Shown here: positions 364 through 15,349 of the stretch, in pieces
Position numbering within the stretch: position 1 is the stretch's first letter
Layout of the letters: every line of letters starts with the position of its first letter
From: Bosea sp. 29B
GTDB lineage: Bacteria > Pseudomonadota > Alphaproteobacteria > Rhizobiales > Beijerinckiaceae
Length of the DNA: 64,000 nucleotides
NCBI RefSeq assembly: GCF_902506165.1
Contig: NZ_LR733817.1
Location: 1,534,255 to 1,598,254 of the forward strand
Reading direction: 5' to 3'
Notes under the pieces: generated by a model
The model's input: the letters and a program-made list of their open reading frames with translations, nothing else
Databases searched by the model: none
Told to the model about the DNA's origin: nothing
Program-made: the position numbers and the translations under genes

Positions 364-1631
364 GGCGCGCCATCGTCCTTGCCGGCGACCGCCGCCAGCA
401 GCGCCCGATGCACCCGCTCCAGCCCGGCCTGCGCCGAGAACTCGGTGCTCAACCTGTCGAAGGCGGCCGCTCCCAGCTTCCCGCGCCATTGCGGATCGCG
501 GGCCAGCCCATCCAGCGCCTTGGCCAGGGCCGTGACGTCGCTCGGCCGCAGCAGCAACCCTTCGCGGCCATGCTCGACGAACTCGGGAATGCCGGCGAAA
601 TCGGTGGCGACGATCGGCAGGGCCTGGCTCGCCGCCTCCATCACCACATTGGGCAAGCCGTCGCGATCGCCGTTCCCCGCCTGCTTCGAGGGCAGCACGA
701 AGAGGTCGGCCTCGCGCAACGCCGCGACAACGGCATCCTGCGCCTGCGCTCCGCGCCACTCGATCCGCGAGGCAAGGCCCAGTTTCTCGGCTTGCGCCTT
801 CAAGGCCGCGAGCATCTCGCCGCCACCGATATGGACGAGCCGCCAGTTCAGCTCCGCCGGCAGGATCGCCAAGGCTGCCAGCAGATCGTCAAAACCCTTC
901 TTCGCCACCGCCCGCCCGATGGTGATGAAGCGCACCGGCTCGGCCGGATCGGAGCCGTCGCGCGGCGGGCGCGCCTCAGGCGGTACCGGAAACCGCGCAA
1001 GATCGAGCCCGTGATAGAGCAGCGCGACCGTGTCGGGCCGATCGGCAAGACGCGCGAGCTCGGCATGGCCGTCGCGGGTGCAGGTCACGCCCCAGCGCGC
1101 GTCAGTGATCTTCTCGCGCTTCTCCCAATTCGGCGTCGTCCAGATATCCTTGGCATGGGCCGAGAACGACCAGGACAGGCCCCGGCTCAACGCTGCGTAG
1201 CGGATCACGGAGGCGGGCGTGTGCAGGTAGTGGACATGAAGATGGCGGGTGCTGGCCGGCAGTTCGCGCGCCATCACACAGGCCTGGCCGAAGCGGCGCA
1301 AGCGGTTGCGCGTGCGGTCACGGGAAAAATCACGCACAAAGACGCCGAGCAGGCGCAGGATACTCGGCCGCGCGAGGGCGTCGATGATCCCGCGCAGCAC
1401 CCGCGGCCAATCGTCGTGCAGGTATTCCGGGAGATAGTGCAGCGGCGCCGTGATCTCCCGGTGCATCATGTGTCGCGCGCCATCGGTCGGGTGCCGCAGC
1501 GACCAGATCGCGAAGGGCAGGCCGAGCCGCTGCAGACCGAGCAGCTCCTGGGCGATGAAAGTCTCCGACAGGCGCGGATAACCCTTCATCGCGATCGCGA
1601 TCGCCGGTCCGGCAGGCTCTTCGCTGCTCAT
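360..1631 (-). CDS. Glycosyltransferase family 4 protein
   Basis: A 423-residue retaining GT-B glycosyltransferase. The N-terminal half carries a short FSAHAKDIW segment (about 157-165) typical of GT4 acceptor domains. The C-terminal half has IGRAVAKKGFDDL (about 238-250) and an EX7E-like donor-site region around DGLPNVVMEAASQALPIV (about 324-341). I chose the ATG that overlaps the TGA of the upstream methyltransferase-like gene (ATGA). A longer start exists but would run about 60 bases into that gene. Its own stop overlaps the start of the next glycosyltransferase, so three genes are translationally linked. It probably transfers a hexose to a lipid-linked or surface polysaccharide; the substrate is unknown. 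Confidence 0.85.
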   Translation of the reverse strand: MSSEEPAGPAIAIAMKGYPRLSETFIAQELLGLQRLGLPFAIWSLRHPTDGARHMMHREITAPLHYLPEYLHDDWPRVLRGIIDALARPSILRLLGVFVRDFSRDRTRNRLRRFGQACVMARELPASTRHLHVHYLHTPASVIRYAALSRGLSWSFSAHAKDIWTTPNWEKREKITDARWGVTCTRDGHAELARLADRPDTVALLYHGLDLARFPVPPEARPPRDGSDPAEPVRFITIGRAVAKKGFDDLLAALAILPAELNWRLVHIGGGEMLAALKAQAEKLGLASRIEWRGAQAQDAVVAALREADLFVLPSKQAGNGDRDGLPNVVMEAASQALPIVATDFAGIPEFVEHGREGLLLRPSDVTALAKALDGLARDPQWRGKLGAAAFDRLSTEFSAQAGLERVHRALLAAVAGKDDGAP

Positions 1632-2926: not shown

Positions 2927-4684
2927 TCAGACCGGCTTTTCATCGACGATGGCCGTCGGCGCACCGCGGCCATCGTCGCGCAAAGCGTCGGTCCGCGGAT
3001 CGCCTGCCGGCGTGCTACCGAAACCGTAGACCTGCATCGGCTTGTCGCGGCCCTTGACCGCGATCTTGTGCGGGACGGTGTCGCGATAGCTGCGGCCGGT
3101 CGCGCTCACCGTCTCGGCGGAGACGACGATGTCCGAGAGGAGCCGCCGCGTCGCCGCCTCGAGCTGGCTCGCGATCATCACGGTCTCGCCGACGGTGATC
3201 TCGCGCCGCCCCATGCTCTCGTTCTCGACCGCGCCGACGATCGCCTGGCCGCCATGGATGCCGATGCCGATGCGCAGCGGCAATGGCAGGCCGTTGGCAT
3301 ATTCGCGGTTGAGCGCCTCGACCGCGCGCACCATGTCGCCGGCTGCTGCGATCGCCGCCGCGCCCGCCCGCGCCGGCGTCGTCTCCAGGCCGAACACCGC
3401 CATCAGCCCGTCGCCATAGATCGCCTCGATCCGTCCGCCATGCGCAGCGATCGCCTGGGACATCTCGTCATAGAAGCGGTTGAGCAGGGTCATCAGGTCG
3501 TGCGGCAATTGCCGTTCGGACAGCGCGGTGAAGGCTCTGAGGTCCGCGACCATCACCGTCAGCCCCTTCTTGCCGATCCGGTCATCCGGATCGATGGTCC
3601 CCGACGGGCCGGCGCCGCGCTGCTTGGCGGCGAGCAGGATCTGGACCTGGAGGTCGCGCTTGGGCCTGATCTGGCAGGCGAGCCGAACATGGTCGCCAGC
3701 CGAAATCCGGCGCAGCAGCCGCGCTTCGTTCGGGCCGGGCGGCGGCAGGTCGTCGGCGCCGTCGAGCACCAGAACGCGACAGGTGGCGCAGCGCGCCCGC
3801 CCGCCACAGAGCGCGGCATGGGGAATGCCGAAGCGACGGAAAATCTCGAGCAGGGTCGGGCCGGGAATGACGCGGCGCACGCCGTGGCCAACGAAGCGCA
3901 CCGCGATGGCGCCGAGCGCCCGCGCCCGCAGCTCGCGCAGCACGACGAAACCGGCAAAGCCCCCTATCAGGCCGAAGAAGGCGCGCTTGGCCCAGGTCAC
4001 ATGCAGATTGAAGGCATCGACCTGGTTGGCCGTATAGAGCTCGGGCGGGAGCGCCATCATCTGGGCTTCGCGGCCTGCCACCGAGAAGCCTATGATGGCC
4101 AGCAGCGGTATCAGGATCGCAACGAGCAGAAACGGATCGCGCCAGCTCGCATAGGCATCGCGCGCCCGGAAGGTGAAGTGCAGGCCGATCACGCCATGCG
4201 TCCAGACGAGCAAGAGCAGGAAGCTCTGCGACAAGGCGAGGCCCGGCCAAAGCCGGCGCAGCACCGCGTGATAGCTCTCGTCCTGGCCGAACAGGGAACC
4301 CTGAACCCGGGTGCCGACGATATGGTCGATCAGCAGGAGCGGGATCGCGACGCCGAGGATGATCTGGATCACTTCGCGCATCGGCATGCGGAAGGTGCGC
4401 CGCTGCGCCACGCGCAGCAGGGCGAAGACCGGATGGACGAAGAGCGAGCCATAGAGCGCGACCGTGCCGACCCAGCTGTGCCAGAACCAGTAGCGCCACT
4501 CCTGCGCCGCCTCCATCGCCGCAACGCCGAAGATGCCAAGCGCGTGATTGAGGAAATGCGTGGTCGCAAAGACCATCAGGATGCAGCCGGAGGCGAAGCG
4601 CACGTCCCGGCTCCAGGACGACATCTGGTCGAAGCCTGAGGCGGCGGGCTTGCGCCCCGCCGGCGTGCTCGGAATCGCTGTCAT
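2927..4684 (-). CDS. Membrane [2Fe-2S] protein with degenerate class III cyclase domain
   Basis: 585 residues in three parts. Residues 30-250 hold about six membrane helices with several histidines in or near them (H43, H47, H84, H121, H163, H169, H228), like the dihaem anchor of redox-regulated cyclases such as Sinorhizobium CyaC. Next is a plant-type ferredoxin domain with C293, C299, C302 and C337. Residues 375-555 form a class III nucleotide cyclase domain. Both metal aspartates are present (D381, D425), but by motif alignment the transition-state Asn and Arg are M503 and Q507, and the purine-selecting Lys and Asp are A421 and R494. Nucleotide cyclisation is therefore doubtful. It is the last gene of the operon behind a cNMP-domain gene. 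An in-frame ATG at 4720 would overlap that gene. Confidence 0.85.
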   Translation of the reverse strand: MTAIPSTPAGRKPAASGFDQMSSWSRDVRFASGCILMVFATTHFLNHALGIFGVAAMEAAQEWRYWFWHSWVGTVALYGSLFVHPVFALLRVAQRRTFRMPMREVIQIILGVAIPLLLIDHIVGTRVQGSLFGQDESYHAVLRRLWPGLALSQSFLLLLVWTHGVIGLHFTFRARDAYASWRDPFLLVAILIPLLAIIGFSVAGREAQMMALPPELYTANQVDAFNLHVTWAKRAFFGLIGGFAGFVVLRELRARALGAIAVRFVGHGVRRVIPGPTLLEIFRRFGIPHAALCGGRARCATCRVLVLDGADDLPPPGPNEARLLRRISAGDHVRLACQIRPKRDLQVQILLAAKQRGAGPSGTIDPDDRIGKKGLTVMVADLRAFTALSERQLPHDLMTLLNRFYDEMSQAIAAHGGRIEAIYGDGLMAVFGLETTPARAGAAAIAAAGDMVRAVEALNREYANGLPLPLRIGIGIHGGQAIVGAVENESMGRREITVGETVMIASQLEAATRRLLSDIVVSAETVSATGRSYRDTVPHKIAVKGRDKPMQVYGFGSTPAGDPRTDALRDDGRGAPTAIVDEKPV

Positions 4685-4700
4685 CGGCGCACCCGGCGCT

Positions 4701-5150
4701 TCAATGTGTCTTCTCGCCATGCAGGACGGAGTCGGCCAGGCGATAGAGCCGCCCGGCGAGATCGCGCGACAGCGCGACCGAGAACTCCGGAATATTGTCG
4801 AGCAGTTCGAAGAACAATGTCCGCGGCAGGCGCAGCGCCACCACGTCGGTCTTGGCGGTCGACCGCGCCGCATAGGTCTGGTTGCAGAGCAGGGGCACGT
4901 CGCCGATCAGGCTGCCGCTCGCAAGCCGGAAGGTCTTTGACCGTCCTTCCGGCGCCTCATGCGAGAGCTCCACCTCGCCTTCCAGCACGCAATAGACCTC
5001 CTCCGGCTTGTCGCCCTCTTCGGTGATGACAGTGCCGGCCGGGAAATGCAGCCGCTCGCCCATCAAGGCGAGCAGCTTCAGCCGCGGCCCCGGCAGCCCG
5101 CGGAAGAGGGGGATCGACTTCAGGCAGCCTATATCGCTCTCGAGCGTCAT
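4701..5150 (-). CDS. Cyclic-nucleotide-binding-domain protein, stand-alone
   Basis: A 149-residue protein made of one CAP-type cNMP domain with no DNA-binding helix-turn-helix, so it is not a Crp-family regulator. The beta-roll and the phosphate-binding cassette are recognisable at IGDVPLLCNQTYAARSTAKT (about 82-101). Aligned by eye with the usual FGE-x-L-L-x3-PRxA pattern, the ribose-binding Glu is Asp84 and the phosphate-binding Arg falls on Tyr93. cAMP or cGMP binding may therefore be weak, altered or absent. Its ATG overlaps the TGA of the ABC-like gene (ATGA), and the cyclase-domain gene follows 16 bases after its stop. It is probably a cytoplasmic partner of one of the two membrane proteins. 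Confidence 0.85.
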   Translation of the reverse strand: MTLESDIGCLKSIPLFRGLPGPRLKLLALMGERLHFPAGTVITEEGDKPEEVYCVLEGEVELSHEAPEGRSKTFRLASGSLIGDVPLLCNQTYAARSTAKTDVVALRLPRTLFFELLDNIPEFSVALSRDLAGRLYRLADSVLHGEKTH

Positions 5151-7921
5151 GTCCTTGCCCCGATCGGAACCGCGCCATTGGAAATCGGCAGATCGTCCTG
5201 CAGATCGTCCGACTCGTCGCTGGCTCCGCCTTTGCTGCCCACCCGGGCCACAGCTCCGTTGAATACGATCTTCTCAGGGATATCGGCAGCCAGCCCCTGA
5301 TCGGTCAAGAGCAGGAACGTCGTCTTGTCCTGGCAATAATGGCCGATACGCCGGATCAGGCCGCCGGGATCGGCGCAGGTGACGGCGAAGGCATCGAGAT
5401 CGAGCACCAGGATATCGGGCCGTTTGATCAGCGCCTGCGCCAGCGGCACCATCAGCCGCAGCCGCAGCGGCAGATAGCGGCCACGCAGCCCGACATCGGT
5501 GCCAAGCCCCAGGCGATAGGCTGCCGAGTCGAGCCCAGCGCGCGACAACGCCGCCCGGGCGATCTCCGCCACCTTGCGACCGGCATCGGGGACGCCGAAA
5601 CCGATACGCCCGAACAGCAGGTTGTCGCGCACGCTCGCGCCGTGGATCACATCGGCCGGATCGTAGAACTCGATCTCGTCGGCCTTCTCGCCGGGCAGAT
5701 AGGTCTTGAAGCTGTGCCGGGCCCGCAGTACCCGTCGGCGCAGGGCGATATCGAGCAGATTGAGCCGGTGCTTGGGCTCGACATAGCCGAGCGCGAGCGC
5801 GACCAGCTCGCGCTGCACAGTCGGATCGAGCAGGCTGCGCCGGTCGTGCCGCCGCAGCGCCTCGGCGAGCTCGCCGAGCTTCTCCAGGTCGATCTCGCCG
5901 CCGAAGGCGTAGCGCTCGAACAGGATGTGGCCCTGCGGCAGGCCGGCGAAGATCTCGACCAATGTCGAGGCGATACGCCCGCCGATCTCGGCCAGCGGTT
6001 CCTCCAGCGCCTCGGCCTGCAGCACCGAGCGTGCGTAAGGATCCTCGAGCAGGAAATCGGCCGGCTGGCGGCCATTGCGCATTGCGCCGAAGACGAGGTT
6101 CTCCGCGATCGTCGCATTGGCATTGTAGCGGTCGAGGTCGAAGGTCTCGATCAATCCGCCGAGCTTGGTCTTGGTCAGTTCGGCCGCGACGACCTTGCGC
6201 GCCTCGACGATGCGCTCGGCCGCGCCTTCGGGCAGCGGCGCGATCACCTTGGCGTCGAGGCCGAGCTCATAGATCTCGTCGGCGCAGCCGAGCGTGTCGA
6301 GCACGGCGAGCATCCGCTCGTCCAGCGCCTCCTCGCCGTCGAGGCCTACACCTTCATAGTCGTTCCAGTCGGCGCCGAAGGGCAATGGCGTGTTGCCGGC
6401 CCGCAGCGCCTCGATGAAGCGGCGATGCTCGTCCTGGTCGACGACACGGTCGGGTTTGACCACCGGCCGCTTGCGCTTCAGCGGCAGCAGGATGTTGTCG
6501 CGCAGCGAGCCGTTGATGATCTCGATCTCGGGGCCGGCATACCCGATCAGATGGCTGGCGCGCTCGACGCTGATTGCGGACAGGGGCTCGCCGTCGATCA
6601 GCACACGCCCGCCATAGCTCATCGTCTGCCGGCCGAGGATGCGGCCAAGCGTGTCGCGGCCACTGCCTGCCGGCCCGATCAGCGCGACCTTCCCAGGTCG
6701 GTGCAAGCTCAGGCTCAGCGGCGCCAGCAAAGGCTGGCCGCGATTGTCGACCATCTCGAGCTTGTCGAGCCTGATCTCGCCGCGCGGCGCCAGCGGCGCG
6801 ATCTCGCCCTTCTCCTCCAGCGTGACCACCTCGCTCGGATTGAACTGCTGGATCACCTGCTCATATTTGATGGTGACGTCGTTGCGTTGCTGCTCCCAGT
6901 CGATCAGCTCCTTGATCGGCGGCGGCAGGTCGCGATAGGCCGCGATCACCGCGACGAGCTGTCCGATGTCGAGCCGGCCCTGCAGGGCGAAGAAGCCGCC
7001 GACCGCGTAGAAGAAGAAGGGCGTGATCTGCGCCAGCAGGTTGTTCAGGAACTTGACCGCGAATTTGCGCTTGTAGAGCGCATAGCGGATGTCGAAGAGC
7101 GTCCCCAGCCGGCCGGCGATGTCCGACTGGATATAGGAGGTCGCGCCATTGCCCTGGATCGTCGGCCCGGCATCGACGATCTCGCCGATGCGGCCCGCAA
7201 GCTGGCGCGAGGCGATCTGGCGCTCTCGGCCGAGCCTGAGCTGCTCCTTGCGCAGAATCGGGATGATCACCGCCTGGATCAGCACGATGACCAGCGCGAT
7301 CGAGCCGAGCCAGACGCTCTGCATCATGATGAAGGCGAGCGCGGTCAGCGCCTGGCTGAGCAGGAAGGCCGGCTGGATGAAGGCGTCACCGACGAAGCTG
7401 CCGATCGGCTCGACCTCGTCCTTGATCATGCTCGCGACCTCGGCCGGCTTGACCGAACGGATCTCCTCCGGCCGGAAACGCATCAACTGGCTGAACAGAT
7501 CGTAGCGCATGCGCCTGAGCATCCGCTCGCCCAGAATGCCCTTCTGCAGGTTGACGACGTATTTGAAGCCGCCGTTGATCAGGACGAGCGCGAGGAAATA
7601 GAGGCTCAGCGTCAGCAGCAACCCGAGCTGGCTGACCTTGAAGCCTTCGAAGAGCTGGACGCTGCCGCCACCGAGCATATCGGGCCAATGCAGCGTCCAG
7701 TCGAATACCGTCGCCGTCGTCTTGCCATCCTTGAAAGCCCCGCCCTGGATGGCGTCGTTGACGATGCGCTTGGGGACGTCGAAGGACAGCCAGTTGAACG
7801 GGATCGAGACGAGGATCACGAGCAGAACGATGATCTGCTCCCGGCGACTCTTCTGCCAGACGTAACGGAAGAGGCTTCTCTCCAAGGGGCTTTCCCATCC
7901 CGTATCCGGAAGAGCGGACAC
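5147..7921 (-). CDS. ABC-exporter-like protein with degenerate, expanded ATPase region
   Basis: A 924-residue protein. Residues 25-330 look like a type-I ABC exporter membrane domain with an unusually long first periplasmic loop. The following ATPase region is about 540 residues, more than twice the usual size. The Walker A position reads GPAGSGRD (416-423) with R422 instead of the catalytic Lys. No LSGGQ signature is visible. The Walker B strand ILVLDLD (837-843) lacks the catalytic Glu, and the H-loop His appears to be T873. Three copies of the post-Q-loop pattern occur: GSLRDNILLP (471), ATIAENLVFG (603), ASVRDNLLFG (762). It opens the operon with the cNMP-domain and cyclase-domain genes. 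ATP-driven transport is unlikely on these residues; a gated channel or scaffold is possible. Confidence 0.85.
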   Translation of the reverse strand: MSALPDTGWESPLERSLFRYVWQKSRREQIIVLLVILVSIPFNWLSFDVPKRIVNDAIQGGAFKDGKTTATVFDWTLHWPDMLGGGSVQLFEGFKVSQLGLLLTLSLYFLALVLINGGFKYVVNLQKGILGERMLRRMRYDLFSQLMRFRPEEIRSVKPAEVASMIKDEVEPIGSFVGDAFIQPAFLLSQALTALAFIMMQSVWLGSIALVIVLIQAVIIPILRKEQLRLGRERQIASRQLAGRIGEIVDAGPTIQGNGATSYIQSDIAGRLGTLFDIRYALYKRKFAVKFLNNLLAQITPFFFYAVGGFFALQGRLDIGQLVAVIAAYRDLPPPIKELIDWEQQRNDVTIKYEQVIQQFNPSEVVTLEEKGEIAPLAPRGEIRLDKLEMVDNRGQPLLAPLSLSLHRPGKVALIGPAGSGRDTLGRILGRQTMSYGGRVLIDGEPLSAISVERASHLIGYAGPEIEIINGSLRDNILLPLKRKRPVVKPDRVVDQDEHRRFIEALRAGNTPLPFGADWNDYEGVGLDGEEALDERMLAVLDTLGCADEIYELGLDAKVIAPLPEGAAERIVEARKVVAAELTKTKLGGLIETFDLDRYNANATIAENLVFGAMRNGRQPADFLLEDPYARSVLQAEALEEPLAEIGGRIASTLVEIFAGLPQGHILFERYAFGGEIDLEKLGELAEALRRHDRRSLLDPTVQRELVALALGYVEPKHRLNLLDIALRRRVLRARHSFKTYLPGEKADEIEFYDPADVIHGASVRDNLLFGRIGFGVPDAGRKVAEIARAALSRAGLDSAAYRLGLGTDVGLRGRYLPLRLRLMVPLAQALIKRPDILVLDLDAFAVTCADPGGLIRRIGHYCQDKTTFLLLTDQGLAADIPEKIVFNGAVARVGSKGGASDESDDLQDDLPISNGAVPIGART

Positions 7922-8204: not shown

Positions 8205-10088
8205 ATGAACATTCTCGAGATCAACGACCTCCGGATCGGCTTCACCATCCATGGCTTCGCTCGCGATGTCGTGAAGGGCGTCGATTTCCGCATTCCGGCC
8301 GGCAAGACGGTGGCGCTCGTCGGCGAGTCCGGCTCCGGCAAGTCGGTGATCTCGCAGGCGATCATGGGGCTCCTGCCGCGGGCCGGCGCGGTTACCGGCG
8401 GAAGCATCCTGTTCCGCGACCCGCAGACGCCTGGCGCCGTCACCGACATCGCCGGCCTGCCGGCCGAGGGCAAGGAGATCCGCGACCTGCGCGGCGGGCG
8501 CATCGGCATGATCTTCCAGGAACCGATGTCCTCGCTCTCGCCGGTCCACACCATCGGCAACCAGATCGAGGAGGCGCTGCAACTGCACCGGCCGATGCCG
8601 AAGCCGCAGGCGCGCGAGCTGATCGAGGCAATGCTGAAGCGCGTCGGCTTCAGGGACCCGGCCCGCGCTTATGATTTCTACTCCTTCGAGCTCTCCGGCG
8701 GCCTGCGCCAGCGCGCCATGCTCGCCATGGCGCTGATCTGCCAGCCCGCGCTGCTGATCGCCGACGAGCCGACGACAGCGCTAGACGTCACCATCCAGGC
8801 CCAGGTGCTCGACCTGATGCGCGATCTCCAGGCCGAAATGGGCATGGCGATCCTGCTGATCACCCATGATCTCGGCGTCGTCGCCAACATGGCCGACGAG
8901 GTCGTGGTGATCTACCATGGCGAGATCATGGAGAGCGGCCCGGCCGAGGACATCTTCCGCCGCCCGCAGCACCCCTATCTCAAGGCGCTGCTCAAGGCCT
9001 CGCCGCATTTCGACATGCAGGAGGGCGAGCGGCTTGTCGCCCTGCGCGAGGCGCGCCCGCGCGTGCCGGCCGCGCCGAAACCGGCGCCGCCGCCGCAAAG
9101 CCGCGATCAGCAGGCACCGCTGCTGGCGGTTCGCAACGTCCACAAGACCTATACGACCCATTCGAGCCGCTTCTTCGGCAAGGGTACGACTTCGACCGTG
9201 ACCGCCGTCAACGATGTCAGCTTCGACATCGAGCGCGGCGAATGCCTCGGACTGGTCGGCGAGAGCGGCTGCGGCAAGACCACGCTCAGCAAGCTGATCA
9301 TGCGGGCGCTGACACCGGATTCAGGCGAGATCCGCTTCGACGACGGCAAGGACTGCATCGACCTCCTCTCGCTGCAGGGCGAGGCGCTGCGCCGCTTCCG
9401 CCCCAAGCTGCAGATGATCTTCCAGGACCCGGTCTCGTCATTGTCGCCGCGCATGACCGTGATGAACCTCCTGCGCGAGCCCCTCGTCATCCACGAGCGC
9501 GGCGACGGCGCCGAGCAGAAGGCTCGCGTCAAGGCCCTGATGGACGATGTCGGGCTCGATCAGCGCTTCCTTTCGCGTTATCCGCACTCCTTCTCCGGCG
9601 GCCAGCGCCAGCGCATCGGCATCGCCCGCGCGCTCGCGCTCGATCCGGAGCTGATTATCTGCGACGAGCCGGTCTCGGCGCTCGACGTCTCCGTCCAGGC
9701 GCAGATCCTCAACCTGCTCAAGGACCTGCAGGCCGAACGCGGCCTGACCTTCCTGTTCATCTCGCACAATCTCGCCGTGGTGAACTACATGGCCGACCGC
9801 ATCGCGGTGATGGCGAACGGGCGCATCGTCGAGCTCGCACCGCGCCATACGCTCTTTACCGCACCGGTCCACCCCTACACCAAGGCGCTGCTGAAATCGG
9901 TGCCCTTCGCCGATCTCGACCGCAAGCTCGACTTCAAGCTGGCTGCGCCCGGCGGCGCCTCCGACACCCGCCATTGGCCGGCCTCCTTCAAGCCCGACGC
10001 TCAAGGCGAGCCGCTCGCCCATCTCGATCTCGGGGCCGGTCATCTCGTCCTCGCCAAGCCCGGTGCCGATGTCAGGGAGCTCGCCTGA
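8205..10088 (+). CDS. Dual-ATPase subunit of a peptide-type ABC importer
   Basis: 627 residues holding two fused oligopeptide-type ATPase domains, as in YejF or GsiA (DppD plus DppF in one chain). The first has Walker A GESGSGKS (about 40-47) and an LSGG signature at about 163. The second has GESGCGKT (about 352-359) and an FSGGQRQR signature at about 463. Both have intact Walker B ADEP/CDEP segments and switch histidines, so both look active. Each domain ends in the [16 protein letters not shown] segment of the OppD/OppF family. It is the first gene of a four-gene unit, and its TGA overlaps the ATG of the binding protein. It powers uptake of a peptide- or oligosaccharide-like solute; the substrate is unknown. 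Confidence 0.93.
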
Positions 10089-12001
10089 TGCGGATCGCGC
10101 GCCGGAGCTTTCTCCTCGGGACGGGCGCCGCCCTCCTTGCACCGCGGCTCGGCCTCGCCGGCGTCGAGACACTAATCGACAGCCCGGCGCTCGCCGCCAA
10201 GGTCACGGCCGGCGAACTGCCTGGTCTTGCCGAGCGCCTGCCGAAATCGCCACGACTGATCAACGTGGCGGCGATGGGCCGCGCGCCCGGCAGGCACGGC
10301 GGCACCATGCGCATGCTGATGGGCGACCAGCGCGATATCCGCATGATGACGATCTATGGCTACACCCGTCTCGTCGTCTACGACGACAAGCTCGAGCTGG
10401 CGCCCGATCTGCTGGAGAGTTTCGAGGTCGAGCGCGGCCGCGTCTTCACCTTGCGGCTGCGGGCCGGCCACCGTTGGTCCGACGGCCACCCCTTCACCGC
10501 CGAGGATTTCCGCTATTGGTGGGAGGACGTCGCCAACAACAAGCGGCTCTCGCCGGGCGGGCCGCCGCAGGCGATGGTGATCTCCGGCCAGCCCTGCCGC
10601 TTCGAGATCCTCGACGAGCTGACGCTGCGCTACAGCTGGGCCGAGCCGAATCCGGTCTTCCTGCCTGCGCTCGCCGGCGCCCAGCCGCTCTATATCGCCA
10701 TGCCGGCGCATTACCTGAAGCAGTTCCACCAGCGCTATGCCGGCAAGGAGGAGCTGGAGCAGAAGATCAAGAACGGTCGGGTCAAGGACTGGGGCTCGCT
10801 GCACGAGCGCTTCTCGCGCCAATACCGGCCAGAGAACCCCGATCTGCCGACGCTCGACCCCTGGCGCAATACCACGTCGATCCCGGCCGAGCGTTTCACC
10901 TTCGTTCGCAACCCCTATTTCCACCGGGTCGACGAGAACGGTCGGCAGCTCCCCTATGTCGACGAGGTCACGCTGACTATCGGCAGTTCGGCGCTGATCC
11001 CGGCCAAGACCGCAGCCGGAGAGACCGACCTGCAAGCCCGCTATCTGCGCTTCGAGGACTATACCTTTCTCAAGGGCGCTTCGAAGCGGATGAATTTCGA
11101 GGTCAGGCTGTGGAAGCGGGCCGAGGGCGCCTCATTCGCGCTGATGCCCAATCTCAACGCGATCGATCCGATCTGGCGCGACCTCAACCGCGATGTGCGC
11201 TATCGCCGTGCACTCTCGCTCGCGATCAATCGCCGCGACATCAACCGGGTCATCTACTTCGGGCTCGCCAAGGAGAGCGGCAACACCGCTTTGCCCGAGA
11301 GTCCGCTCTATGATGCGGCGCTGGCGCAGCTCAACATGACGCCGGATCTCGCCGAGGCCAACCGCCTGCTCGACGAGATCGGCTTGTCCAAGCGTGACGG
11401 CGAGAAGATCCGCCAGTTCCCGGATGGGCGACGCCTGGAATTCACCATCGAGACCGCTGGCGCCTCGACCGAGGAGACCGACATCCTCGACCTGATCAAG
11501 CAGGATTTCATCGCGATCGGCATCAAGATCCACCCGCGCTCGAGCCAGCTCGATGTCTTCCGCCGCCGCATCCTCGCCGGCCAGACGATCATGTCCGGCT
11601 GGACCGGAATGGACAACGCGCTGGTCGCGGCCGAAATGGAACCGGACGCGCTGGCGCCCACCTCGCCCGCCCAGTTCAACTGGCCGCGCTGGGGCCAGTA
11701 TTTCGAGAGCGGTGGCCGCGAAGGCGAAGCGCCCGACAGTCCGGAGGCAAAGGAACTCGTTGCGCTCTACAAAGCCTGGCGGCACTCAGCGACCCATCAG
11801 GAGCGCCGGGAAATCTGGCAGACGATGCTGAAGATCAACGCCGAACAATTGTTCACGATCGGCGTGGTCAACGCCACGCTGCAGCCGGTCGTGGTCGCCA
11901 AGACGCTACGCAATCTGCCTGAAAATGGCCTCTACAGCTTCGAGCCGGGCGCCTTCTTCGGCCGCTACATGCCGGACACGTTCTGGTTCGAGGGGAAATA
12001 G
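10088..12001 (+). CDS. Periplasmic solute-binding protein, family 5 (peptide/DppA type)
   Basis: 637 residues. The start ATG shares an A with the TGA of the ATPase gene. The N-terminus [17 protein letters not shown] is a twin-arginine-type signal (RRSFLLG), so export may be folded through Tat. The body follows the SBP family 5 pattern, with FTLRLRAGHRWSDGHPFTAEDF (in a stretch of the first 150 residues) and a later block of regular family residues on conserved proline-rich loops such as PLYIAMPAHYL. It is longer than DppA (about 530), like the binding proteins of several rhizobial oligopeptide or oligosaccharide importers. It delivers the solute to the two permeases encoded directly downstream. 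Confidence 0.9.
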   Translation: MRIARRSFLLGTGAALLAPRLGLAGVETLIDSPALAAKVTAGELPGLAERLPKSPRLINVAAMGRAPGRHGGTMRMLMGDQRDIRMMTIYGYTRLVVYDDKLELAPDLLESFEVERGRVFTLRLRAGHRWSDGHPFTAEDFRYWWEDVANNKRLSPGGPPQAMVISGQPCRFEILDELTLRYSWAEPNPVFLPALAGAQPLYIAMPAHYLKQFHQRYAGKEELEQKIKNGRVKDWGSLHERFSRQYRPENPDLPTLDPWRNTTSIPAERFTFVRNPYFHRVDENGRQLPYVDEVTLTIGSSALIPAKTAAGETDLQARYLRFEDYTFLKGASKRMNFEVRLWKRAEGASFALMPNLNAIDPIWRDLNRDVRYRRALSLAINRRDINRVIYFGLAKESGNTALPESPLYDAALAQLNMTPDLAEANRLLDEIGLSKRDGEKIRQFPDGRRLEFTIETAGASTEETDILDLIKQDFIAIGIKIHPRSSQLDVFRRRILAGQTIMSGWTGMDNALVAAEMEPDALAPTSPAQFNWPRWGQYFESGGREGEAPDSPEAKELVALYKAWRHSATHQERREIWQTMLKINAEQLFTIGVVNATLQPVVVAKTLRNLPENGLYSFEPGAFFGRYMPDTFWFEGK

Positions 12002-13007: not shown

Positions 13008-14180
13008 ATGCCTCCCGCCCCACAGGCTTCCGAGCCGCTGCCGCATCGCTGGTCGACCGCGCCGTTCGAGCCCTATGCGATCGAGAAGATGTCGCCCGAG
13101 CAGGAGCGGGTCTATCTCGCGCCGCAATGGAAGCTGATGTGGTGGAAATTCCGCAAGCACAGGCTCGCGGTGATCTCCGGCGTCGTCATCCTGCTGATGT
13201 ACCTGTCGGTCGCGATCTGCGAGTTCCTGGCGCCCTATCACTACACGACGCGCAACACCGACTTCATCCGCGCCCCGCGGCAGGAGCTGCATCTCTTCCA
13301 CGAGGGCAGCTTCGTCGGGCCCTTCGTCTATCCGTATGTCCAGCGCCTCAACATGGAGAACCTGAAGCGCGAATATGACGTCGACGAAACCAGGCCGCAG
13401 AAGCTCCGCTTCTTCTGCCGCGCCGACAATTACGAGTTCTGGGGCCTCATCCCCGGCAATCTCCACCTGATCTGCCCGCCCGAGGGCGGCACGCTCTATC
13501 TGCTCGGCACCGACCGGCTCGGGCGCGACATGTTCTCGCGCATCCTCTATGGCGGGCGGATCTCGCTGACCATCGGCCTGCTCGGCGTCAGCGTCTCCTT
13601 CGTGCTCGGCATCATCATCGGCGGCATCGCCGGCTACTATGGCGGCAAGGTCGATCTCATCGTCCAGCGCGTCATCGAGATCGTGCAGTCGCTGCCGCAT
13701 ATCCCGCTCTGGCTTGCGCTGGGGGCGATCATGCCGCCCTCCTGGAGCCCGTTGCTGGTCTATTTCGGCATCACCGTGATCCTCGGGCTGATGGACTGGA
13801 CCGGGCTCGCCCGCGCCGTCCGCTCGAAACTGCTGGCGCTGCGCGAGGAGGATTATGTCGTCGCCGCCCAGCTGATGGGCGCCAAGCCGGCCCGCATCAT
13901 CGGCCTGCATCTCGTGCCCGGCTTCATGAGCCATCTCATCGCCGCCGCGACGATCACCATTCCCAAGACGATCCTTGGCGAGACTGCGCTGTCCTTCCTC
14001 GGCCTCGGCCTGCGCCCCCCGATCACCAGCTGGGGCGTGATGCTGAACGAAGCGCAGAACATCAACGTCGTCGCGCTCTATCCTTGGCTGCTCTACCCTT
14101 GCGTCCCGGTGATCGTCATCATCCTCGCCTTCAACTTCCTCGGCGACGGCCTGCGCGATGCGGCCGATCCGTATCGCTGA
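13008..14180 (+). CDS. ABC importer permease, DppC type, with periplasmic insertion
   Basis: 390 residues. The start is ATG two bases past the stop of the DppB-type gene. A GTG at 13002 overlapping that stop would add two residues and is also possible. After the first membrane helix (about 50-70) there is an insert of some 100 residues before the conserved LGTDRLGRDMFSRILYG entry into the permease core; this longer architecture recalls YejE-like rather than classical DppC proteins. The coupling loop AAQLMGAKPARIIGLHLVP and the closing LGDGLRDAADPYR are family signatures. It is the last transporter gene, followed 29 bases later by a glycosyltransferase. Confidence 0.92.
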   Translation: MPPAPQASEPLPHRWSTAPFEPYAIEKMSPEQERVYLAPQWKLMWWKFRKHRLAVISGVVILLMYLSVAICEFLAPYHYTTRNTDFIRAPRQELHLFHEGSFVGPFVYPYVQRLNMENLKREYDVDETRPQKLRFFCRADNYEFWGLIPGNLHLICPPEGGTLYLLGTDRLGRDMFSRILYGGRISLTIGLLGVSVSFVLGIIIGGIAGYYGGKVDLIVQRVIEIVQSLPHIPLWLALGAIMPPSWSPLLVYFGITVILGLMDWTGLARAVRSKLLALREEDYVVAAQLMGAKPARIIGLHLVPGFMSHLIAAATITIPKTILGETALSFLGLGLRPPITSWGVMLNEAQNINVVALYPWLLYPCVPVIVIILAFNFLGDGLRDAADPYR

Positions 14181-14209
14181 AGCTCGCTCGCCCATCGCAA
14201 GACCAACCC

Positions 14210-15349
14210 GTGAAGATCGCTTTCCACACGCCGCTGAACCGCTATGGCGACGGCGCCCCCTCCGGCGACCGGCTGATGGCGCGCCAGCTGGTGACGCTGC
14301 TGGAAGATCTCGTCCATGCTGTCGAGATCGTCCCGGCCGAGCGCAGCTTCATGCGCGAGCCCGACCCGGTGCTGCTCGCAGCTCACAAAAAAGCAGCGCA
14401 AGACGTGATCGCGGCGCTGACTGAGCGTTGGCAGGCGCCGAAAGCCCGGCCCGACCTGTTCTTCACCTATCACTGCCACTACCGCGCCCCGGACCTGATC
14501 GGCCCAGCCCTGGTCGAGCACTTCGCCCTGCCCTACCTGATTGCCGAAGCCAGCGATGCGCAGAAGCGCTTCACCGGCCCCTGGGCCGAGGCGGCGGCGC
14601 TCGCCCGCGAGGCGATCCTGCGCGCCGATCTGCATCTCTGCATGACCGAGCGCGACCGCGAAGGCCTGAGCCGGCTCGTCCCCGAGCCTGAGCGCCTGGT
14701 CGACCTGCCACCCTTCCTGCTCGGTGTCGAAGACGTTCCGGAGCACTCTGTCGCGCCTCGCGAGGGGAACGAACCGGTGCGCCTGATCGCCGTCGCGATG
14801 ATGCGCCAGGGCAACAAGGCCGCCTGCTACCTCTTCCTCGCCCGCACGCTTGCCCACATCGCCGACCTGCCCTGGACACTGACGCTGATCGGCGATGGCC
14901 CCGAGCGTTCCGTCATCGAAGCCGCCTTTGCCGGCTTTCCGCCCGGTCGCATCCGCTTTCTCGGGCGGCGCGAGCGCGCCGAGATCCTCGCCGAACTCGC
15001 GACGCACGACCTCTTCGTCTGGCCGGGTCTGAACGAGGCCTACGGCGTCGTCTATCTCGAAGCGCAGGCGGCTGGGCTTGCCGTCGCGGCGTTGGACAGC
15101 GGCGGCGTGCCCGCCGTCGTGGCGCGCGATCGCACCGCACTACTCGCGCCTCATGGCGACGAGGCCGCGCTGGCGGCAACGATCGCGCGGCTGGTCAAAG
15201 ATTCCGGCTTACGCGCCCGCATGGGCGGGGCGGCACAATTGTTCGCGCGCCAGGAACGGAATGGCGACAGCGCCCGCAAAATCCTCGCCGGCGCGCTGGA
15301 CGCCGCCATCGCCCGGCATGGCCGCAGGGCCCCGGAGACCGTACTGTGA
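14210..15349 (+). CDS. Glycosyltransferase family 4 protein of the second glycan module
   Basis: 379 residues from a GTG start. Upstream ATG codons in frame lie inside the permease gene and are unlikely. The N-terminal VKIAFHTPLNRYGDGAPSGD is the nucleotide-sugar Rossmann opening. The C-terminal domain has LIGDGPERSVIEAAFAG and then FVWPGLNEAYGVVYLEAQAA, which contains the GT4 EX7E-like donor site with E and GVVYLEA. It probably works in the cytoplasm on a surface glycan. The stop overlaps the next start as GTGA, so the deacetylase-like gene is translationally coupled. The acceptor is unknown. Confidence 0.85.
   Translation: MKIAFHTPLNRYGDGAPSGDRLMARQLVTLLEDLVHAVEIVPAERSFMREPDPVLLAAHKKAAQDVIAALTERWQAPKARPDLFFTYHCHYRAPDLIGPALVEHFALPYLIAEASDAQKRFTGPWAEAAALAREAILRADLHLCMTERDREGLSRLVPEPERLVDLPPFLLGVEDVPEHSVAPREGNEPVRLIAVAMMRQGNKAACYLFLARTLAHIADLPWTLTLIGDGPERSVIEAAFAGFPPGRIRFLGRRERAEILAELATHDLFVWPGLNEAYGVVYLEAQAAGLAVAALDSGGVPAVVARDRTALLAPHGDEAALAATIARLVKDSGLRARMGGAAQLFARQERNGDSARKILAGALDAAIARHGRRAPETVL

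Follow-up and report, generated by a model that had tools for sequence, protein, structure and literature searches.

An ABC exporter-like protein that lacks its ATPase motifs is encoded beside, or fused with, a cNMP-binding-domain protein in nearly all of the alphaproteobacterial loci that we compared. In Bosea, this pair is followed by a homologue of redox-regulated class III cyclases whose catalytic residues are gone, and the cNMP protein has also lost the residues with which it would hold cAMP. The loss of both the cAMP-making and the cAMP-catching residues, with the sensor kept, suggests that the circuit has been rewired to work without its messenger. Our preferred reading, which we hold tentatively and with slightly less than even confidence, is that the three products form one membrane signaling assembly, a cAMP-gated pseudo-transporter that in Bosea would have been converted into a redox relay working by protein contact.

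Results

Organization of the locus

We analyzed a stretch of 64,000 nucleotides from Bosea sp. 29B (contig NZ_LR733817.1), referred to here as the window. Three genes follow one another along the minus strand from position 7921 to position 2927 in the order ABC-like, cNMP and cyclase (Table 1). The original prediction had described them as coupled, and both its coordinates and the coupling hold: the cNMP gene overlaps the ABC stop codon by 4 nt, and 16 nt separate the cNMP stop codon from the cyclase gene. The ABC protein matches the Pfam models PF00664 (ABC_membrane) and PF00005 (ABC_tran), the cNMP protein scores 69 bits against PF00027 (cut-off 27.5), and the cyclase protein contains PF00111 (Fer2) and PF00211 (Guanylate_cyc) domains. 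The nearest named loci are from Bosea, with the ABC protein of Bosea lupini at 96%. The 180 homologous loci comprise the top 80 from a single scan, 27 belonging to the Bosea clade, and 100 hand-picked matches; 178 are distinct, as two pairs are identical in sequence. Alignments A1-A5 are hand-picked subsets of 12, 18, 59, 20 and 33 sequences, respectively.

Positions 8205-12001 and onward on the plus strand hold a divergent peptide-importer locus, with 283 bp separating its start from the ABC gene. Its tandem ATPase is most like YejF, scoring below the YejF cut-off and above the cut-off of a dipeptide ATPase subfamily. A solute-binding-like protein is encoded from position 10088, with apparent permeases beyond. 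Of the 180 loci, 75 contain a similar ATPase and 70 contain the binding protein.

Table 1. Genes, domains and motifs of the three-gene locus (positions in the window)
Feature	Residues	Coordinates	Strand	Remarks
Pseudo-ABC exporter-fold gene		5147..7921	-	GTG start, 924 aa
ABC protein domains	transmembrane ~1-360; nucleotide-binding-domain start 376-500; extra segments ~500-790; domain end 790-900			
Degenerate Walker A, GPAGSGRDT	416-424	6650..6676	-	Lys replaced by Arg422
Q-loop-like motif 1, GSLRDNILLPL	471-481	6479..6511	-	
Q-loop-like motif 2, ATIAENLVFGA	603-613	6083..6115	-	in the extra part
Q-loop-like motif 3, ASVRDNLLFGR	762-772	5606..5638	-	
Stand-alone cNMP-binding-domain gene		4701..5150	-	149 aa; PF00027
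Six-helix / [2Fe-2S] / class III pseudo-cyclase gene		2927..4684	-	585 aa; PF00111 and PF00211
Six-helix membrane domain	~15-250	3935..4642	-	His43, His84, His121, His163; helices in model
[2Fe-2S] domain	255-350	3635..3922	-	Cys293, Cys299, Cys302, Cys337
Pseudo-cyclase catalytic domain	372-555	3020..3571	-	

ATPase motifs are missing throughout the ABC family

The window ABC protein has a Type IV exporter fold with an ABC_membrane domain, and none of the motifs of an active ABC exporter. As had been claimed, alignment shows that the Walker A Lys (the motif reads GPAGSGRDTL), the LSGGQ sequence (the signature region reads LRGRYLPLRLR), the catalytic Glu (Walker B ends VLDLD, with Leu842 in place of Glu) and the H-loop His (the position corresponds to T873/D874) are all absent. 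The complete set of six ATPase features occurs in none of the 180 homologous alphaproteobacterial loci; the Walker A Lys is found in 40 and is followed by Ser or Thr in just 3. Judged by these motifs, the loss is a family-wide condition of the pseudo-ABC protein and is not peculiar to Bosea. Some class-level members retain more of the motifs, such as L176 with Lys, Asp, Glu and His. In other class-level relatives (L185-L206), the Walker B Asp is often replaced by Asn or Ser, and the Glu after Walker B and the H-loop His are retained (for example, LVVSEAT with LHRPS), a pattern that by its residues is a half-way state. A 52%-identical relative (P0095) is labeled Leptospira interrogans in the public source, probably owing to a contaminated assembly.

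The nucleotide-binding domain holds three Q-loop/helical segments. Compared with hhalign, segment 1 scored 95.8% against segment 3 and 90.2% against segment 2, and segments 2 and 3 scored 98.5% against one another, versus 0.10-0.17% for three control comparisons. Residues E607 and N608 of motif 2 are present in 79 of 80 loci. The best conserved part of the protein is residues 1-360, where 68 of the 93 invariant columns fall.

The cNMP protein is a near-constant partner

The phosphate-binding cassette of the window cNMP protein is IGDVPLLCNQTYAARS. The domain is present, and the Glu and Arg that mark a cAMP-binding cassette are both replaced; the original prediction had Tyr in place of the Arg, which is correct (Tyr93), and Asp84 stands in place of the Glu. 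Among relatives, Gly83 of the cassette is invariant (176/176) and the Arg is retained in 144 of 176. All 26 Bosea-clade loci have Asp for Glu and lack the Arg, the position of which is taken by Tyr in 11, Phe in 10, Asn in 3 and Thr in 2.

The cNMP protein is adjacent to or fused with the pseudo-ABC protein in 176 of the 180 loci, and a cNMP match lies beside the ABC gene in all 80 named loci. In 10 of the 180 loci, the two form a single open frame; in these, as in 11 of another 13 loci, the cNMP domain is fused at the C-terminal side. Two other cNMP ORFs were found in ~2662 kb of flanking DNA, a low estimate because the profile was built from the adjacent proteins. L170, L176 and L183 have no cNMP gene within range of the neighborhood scan; the miss at L099 is an artefact, as an overlong frame there contains a cNMP match of 91 bits. 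Because of this linkage and fusion, the ABC and cNMP proteins likely form a physical unit.

L170, from the family of the window genome, is a solo paralogue of 853 aa, and the genome-search match to it begins only at profile position 524. A second paralogue, an ABC-cNMP fusion of 1015-1102 aa, is found in nine Bosea genomes (L249-L257), and the cassette Arg is present in 9/9 of the Bosea genomes examined. This fused paralogue was not found in the window genome, which gave one match at 1e-60 and a next match that was 30% identical. In the Microvirga locus L080, the next gene after the cNMP gene (13289-14434) encodes an SLT-type transglycosylase domain.

A putative redox-sensing cyclase joins the pair in some lineages

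The third protein has the six membrane helices with His residues and the [2Fe-2S] Cys residues of a CyaC-type protein, and every one of the 57 linked homologues has the four membrane His and the four cluster Cys. Its metal-binding D381 and D425 are retained, and the catalytic Lys, Thr, Asn and Arg of the CyaC type are replaced by Ala421, Ile496, Met503 and Gln507, respectively. The original prediction was right about the metal residues and the loss of Lys, Asn and Arg, but not about the loss of a purine-selecting Asp, because the Thr/Asp position is Thr in 11/11 intact linked relatives. In a structure model, the catalytic domain matched 1wc1 with a TM(target) of 0.87 at 1.8 A, and the 50 Foldseek matches listed for the whole model were all cyclases. 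Residues 1-250 gave just a chance-level Pfam match (E 1.5), and the six-helix domain gave a weak NCBIfam match to sdhC_b558 (E 2.3e-4, below the cut-off).

An FeS-cyclase lies near the ABC-cNMP pair in 57 of the 180 loci and another cyclase (any cyclase-domain match, irrespective of catalytic residues) in 25, with two loci having both kinds. All four catalytic residues are present in 11 of the 57 linked FeS-cyclases. The other 46, defined as degenerate by loss of Asn and/or Arg, keep none of the four residues in 38 cases, one in 7 and two in 1, and they retain the metal Asp residues in 46/46 and 45/46; in the Bosea clade, all four positions are non-canonical at 26/26 loci. For comparison with unlinked relatives, 11 of 30 loci had no pair within 1.5 kb, and L217, L219 and L220, which are 2-3 kb from a pair, were left out. 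The eight loci counted (L230, L233-L236 and L238-L240) keep Lys, Asn and Arg; L233 was taken as unlinked though it shares a contig with a pair ~15 kb away. Three more unlinked relatives have Asn and Arg (3/3); in two of these, Gln occupies the Lys position. Degenerate FeS-cyclases were found only in linkage with the pair, 46 cases versus Asn and Arg in 11/11 of the unlinked relatives examined. Of 117 genomes of the order that gave a match, the FeS-cyclase sits next to the pair in about 22. By its distribution, the FeS-cyclase is a part-time member of the ABC-cNMP locus.

An MBL-fold hydrolase gene is found near 35 of the 180 loci and near none of the 46 degenerate FeS-cyclase loci. In L153 (9420-10271), L155 (9375-10244) and L165 (4714-5553), its neighbors are the cNMP gene on one side and a different cyclase on the other. 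The protein matches RNase Z and cyclic-nucleotide phosphodiesterase models below their cut-offs and may be a phosphodiesterase; its distribution may simply follow clades.

The losses differ in age and the genes remain under constraint

The cassette Arg is present beside all 11 intact FeS-cyclases, in four further intact linked loci (L227, L228, L229 and L231), beside other cyclases (23/23) and in 93 of 96 loci with no cyclase near, a class that includes contig-end loci (L056 has a cut cyclase fragment). Beside degenerate FeS-cyclases it is kept in 17 of 46, Ancylobacter and Labrys being among the keepers. Thirty of the 32 Arg losses belong to one clade; L149 and L157, which lack the Arg and have no cyclase near, are outside the tree. 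The ABC-protein tree, which was built by a quick method and has long branches, comprises 75 rows; it leaves out L076, whose ABC gene is split in two, and most of the loci that lack an FeS-cyclase. A single change of cyclase state falls on it. The Arg state changes three times on this tree, in Bosea, in L063 with L056, and in L086, all within the degenerate clade. Such counts give no direction, and from the intact relatives found elsewhere we infer that the cyclase change was a loss. An independent-pairs test of co-loss yielded 1 pair and had no power; because there is a single cyclase event, the association between cyclase and Arg states is beyond statistical testing. On the sequence comparisons, the three defects are of different ages and do not count as three independent events within a single lineage.

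The original prediction held that three defects in one operon are unlikely by chance and indicate a repurposed system, that the same substitutions should be conserved and the trio should stay together, and that canonical residues in most homologues would speak against it. Its argument survives in part. The Bosea clade is concordant (26/26), but the ABC defect is no coincidence with the other two because it is family-wide (0/180 with all motifs). The cNMP Arg is canonical in most relatives (144/176), which by the prediction's own standard counts in part against it, and 11 of the 57 linked cyclases have the canonical residues. Likewise, the ABC-cNMP pair stays together (176/180, 10 fused), but the FeS-cyclase is near it in just 57 of 180. 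Sensor residues that are invariant where catalytic ones are gone do suit repurposed signaling. Chance assembly of three defective genes was itself rejected, given the occurrence of the pair in 176 of 180 loci.

We estimated pairwise dN/dS by the Nei-Gojobori method for 27 Bosea-clade sequences (up to 351 pairs), which in high-GC DNA yields relative values only. On this scale, the FeS domain and the ABC transmembrane domain both had a median of 0.20 and the pseudo-cyclase domain one of 0.21, compared with 0.32 in the membrane anchor, 0.39 in the cNMP protein and 0.37-0.40 in the cytoplasmic parts of the ABC protein. No part of the operon looks neutral, and the pseudo-cyclase domain is under constraint. 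Because of these medians (0.20-0.40, as relative values), recent decay was rejected.

Discussion

CyaC of Sinorhizobium meliloti is a redox-regulated class III adenylate cyclase with a di-heme membrane anchor and a [2Fe-2S] domain. The window protein shares with it the six-helix anchor with His residues, the [2Fe-2S] domain, the class III catalytic domain and the metal Asp residues, but has no equivalents of K410, T484, N491 and R495, an equivalence drawn from motif and spacing (74/7/4 in the published numbering versus 75/7/4 here). The CyaC study reports that CyaC contacts Clr, a CRP-like cNMP-domain protein, that the K410A/T484A variant has very low activity and the N491A/R495A variant is silent in the test strain, and that both inactive variants still bind Clr in two-hybrid assays (PMC10463352). 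It also states that the purified proteins CyaC and Clr made contact only with ATP and that the contact was weaker or absent with the ATP-site mutant (PMC10463352), which counts against a simple messenger-free contact. In S. meliloti, cyaC is flanked by cycR, of the TetR type, and smc01817, of the LysR type (PMC10463352), not by ABC and cNMP genes, and we rejected equivalence of gene context.

In Nostoc PCC 7120, the ABC exporter HetC depends on its N-terminal cNMP domain for function (PMC10986499). HetC has a C39 peptidase and an essential ATPase residue, E970, whereas the ATPase motifs of the window ABC protein are gone and no Pfam match to a C39 peptidase was found in it at E <= 0.001; its cNMP partner is a separate gene or, in relatives, a fusion at the C-terminal side. 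Compared with the Type IV-fold exporters TM287/288, BmrCD, PCAT1 and Sav1866, the window protein lacks the ATPase motif set, is longer by ~300 residues that include two additional Q-loop/helical segments, and has a dedicated cNMP partner. The NCBIfam model TIGR03896 describes a cNMP protein named after bacteriocin-type transport, an association that links it to ABC exporters; the window cNMP protein scores 35 bits against its cut-off of 161. SUR and CFTR have a degenerate nucleotide site and put the exporter fold to use in regulation or as a channel; their likeness to the window protein is analogy only.

In the model that we prefer, the core would be an exporter-fold dimer that is unable to go through the ATPase cycle of ABC proteins. 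Its dedicated partner, the cNMP-domain protein, presumably sits on the enlarged nucleotide-binding-domain platform. The ancestral unit would have been a cAMP-responsive membrane protein without a motor of its own, often fed by a cyclase encoded nearby, which in one clade would have been a CyaC-like heme/[2Fe-2S] redox sensor. Silencing would have begun with a single change, presumably a loss, that removed the catalytic Lys, Thr, Asn and Arg of the cyclase, and the cNMP partner would later have lost its phosphate-binding Arg in Bosea and two other sublineages. In Bosea, the redox state of quinone, heme or [2Fe-2S] cluster would then reach the pseudo-ABC protein through contact between pseudo-cyclase and cNMP protein, and not through cAMP. 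This relay would set the state of the membrane domain, as conduit or receptor, without ATP hydrolysis. Complex formation, a messenger-free relay, gating of the scaffold and a function in the membrane are what we infer from the linkage and the residue losses. The CyaC-Clr contact and the need of HetC for its cNMP domain are precedents for the model; weighing against it are the 17 of 46 degenerate-cyclase loci that keep the cassette Arg, the presence of the FeS-cyclase in just 57 of 180 loci, and the two loci (L149 and L157) in which the Arg is gone although no cyclase is near.

The same residues could be read as a switch of ligand, in which the Bosea cNMP protein binds a small molecule other than cAMP (e.g. 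ppGpp), the pseudo-cyclase binds nucleotide-metal as a switch, and the assembly is ligand-gated. The metal Asp residues of the degenerate cyclases persist (46/46 and 45/46), as does Gly83 of the cassette (176/176), and the N-terminal domain of HetC bound ppGpp and was not significantly stabilized by cAMP (PMC10986499). We nonetheless judge this unlikely, since the loss of cassette Glu and Arg in the Bosea clade, together with four different residues at the Arg position, looks as if a phosphate ligand had been given up and does not resemble the gain of a single new specificity. The chances seem slim that the ABC protein is a working transporter, whether it uses an atypical nucleotide site or pairs, as the degenerate half, with an ordinary ABC half-transporter encoded elsewhere, as in TM287/288, TmrAB or BmrCD. 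In favor of this reading, the closest solved folds include heterodimeric exporters, conservation is highest in the transmembrane domain (68/93 invariant columns; dN/dS 0.20), and L176 keeps Lys, Asp, Glu and His. In the window, the Walker A Lys, signature and H-loop are lost jointly, so that both composite sites of a heterodimer would be spoilt. A Pfam scan identified no partner half-transporter in the operon, and the three neighboring ABC genes scanned encode importer ATPases.

That the FeS-cyclase is near the pair in just 57 of 180 loci, and beside it in about 22 of 117 order-level genomes with a match, would suit an arrangement in which the ABC-cNMP pair is real and the pseudo-cyclase is co-transcribed for some other partner, for example as a heterodimerizing cyclase regulator. 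This strikes us as improbable, given that degenerate versions were seen only in linkage (46, versus 11/11 unlinked with Asn and Arg) and that the cNMP and cyclase genes of the window are 16 nt apart. It is very hard to believe that the operon is a relic, deprived of its signal and in decay in Bosea: 33 of the 37 genomes examined from the genus have a match at >=64% identity, the median dN/dS is 0.20-0.40 in all parts, and the sensor residues are invariant. Signs of decay are that two of the three genes lack key residues in the Bosea clade, that the ABC gene is split in a MAG locus (L076), and that in two genomes of the genus the ABC match has an inner stop (G016) or spans residues 194-904 only (G023).

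Among the matches listed in a search of the open-access literature, we found no description of the ABC-cNMP pair or of the trio. The parts are of known kinds. Their combination, a pseudo-ABC protein that is family-wide and has a triplicated segment, and a cAMP circuit silenced step by step did not turn up in the literature searched. The preferred reading of a rewired membrane assembly can be extended to a bolder proposition, which we regard as doubtful but worth stating. A widespread alphaproteobacterial class of motor-less ABC proteins, with a triplicated Q-loop/helical platform and a near-obligate cNMP subunit, would be cAMP-gated membrane effectors and not pumps, and in Bosea the circuit of sensor, cyclase, receptor and effector would be hard-wired, with cyclase and receptor as pseudo-domains and redox state relayed by contact alone. 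If true, this would constitute a new sort of bacterial cAMP target, an ABC-fold membrane protein that is gated instead of powered. The genomes would also provide a natural series in which the second-messenger step seems to fade, cyclase first and receptor next, as sensor and effector stay. With live and dead versions of the operon in related bacteria, the passage from an enzyme to a pure conformational relay would become testable.
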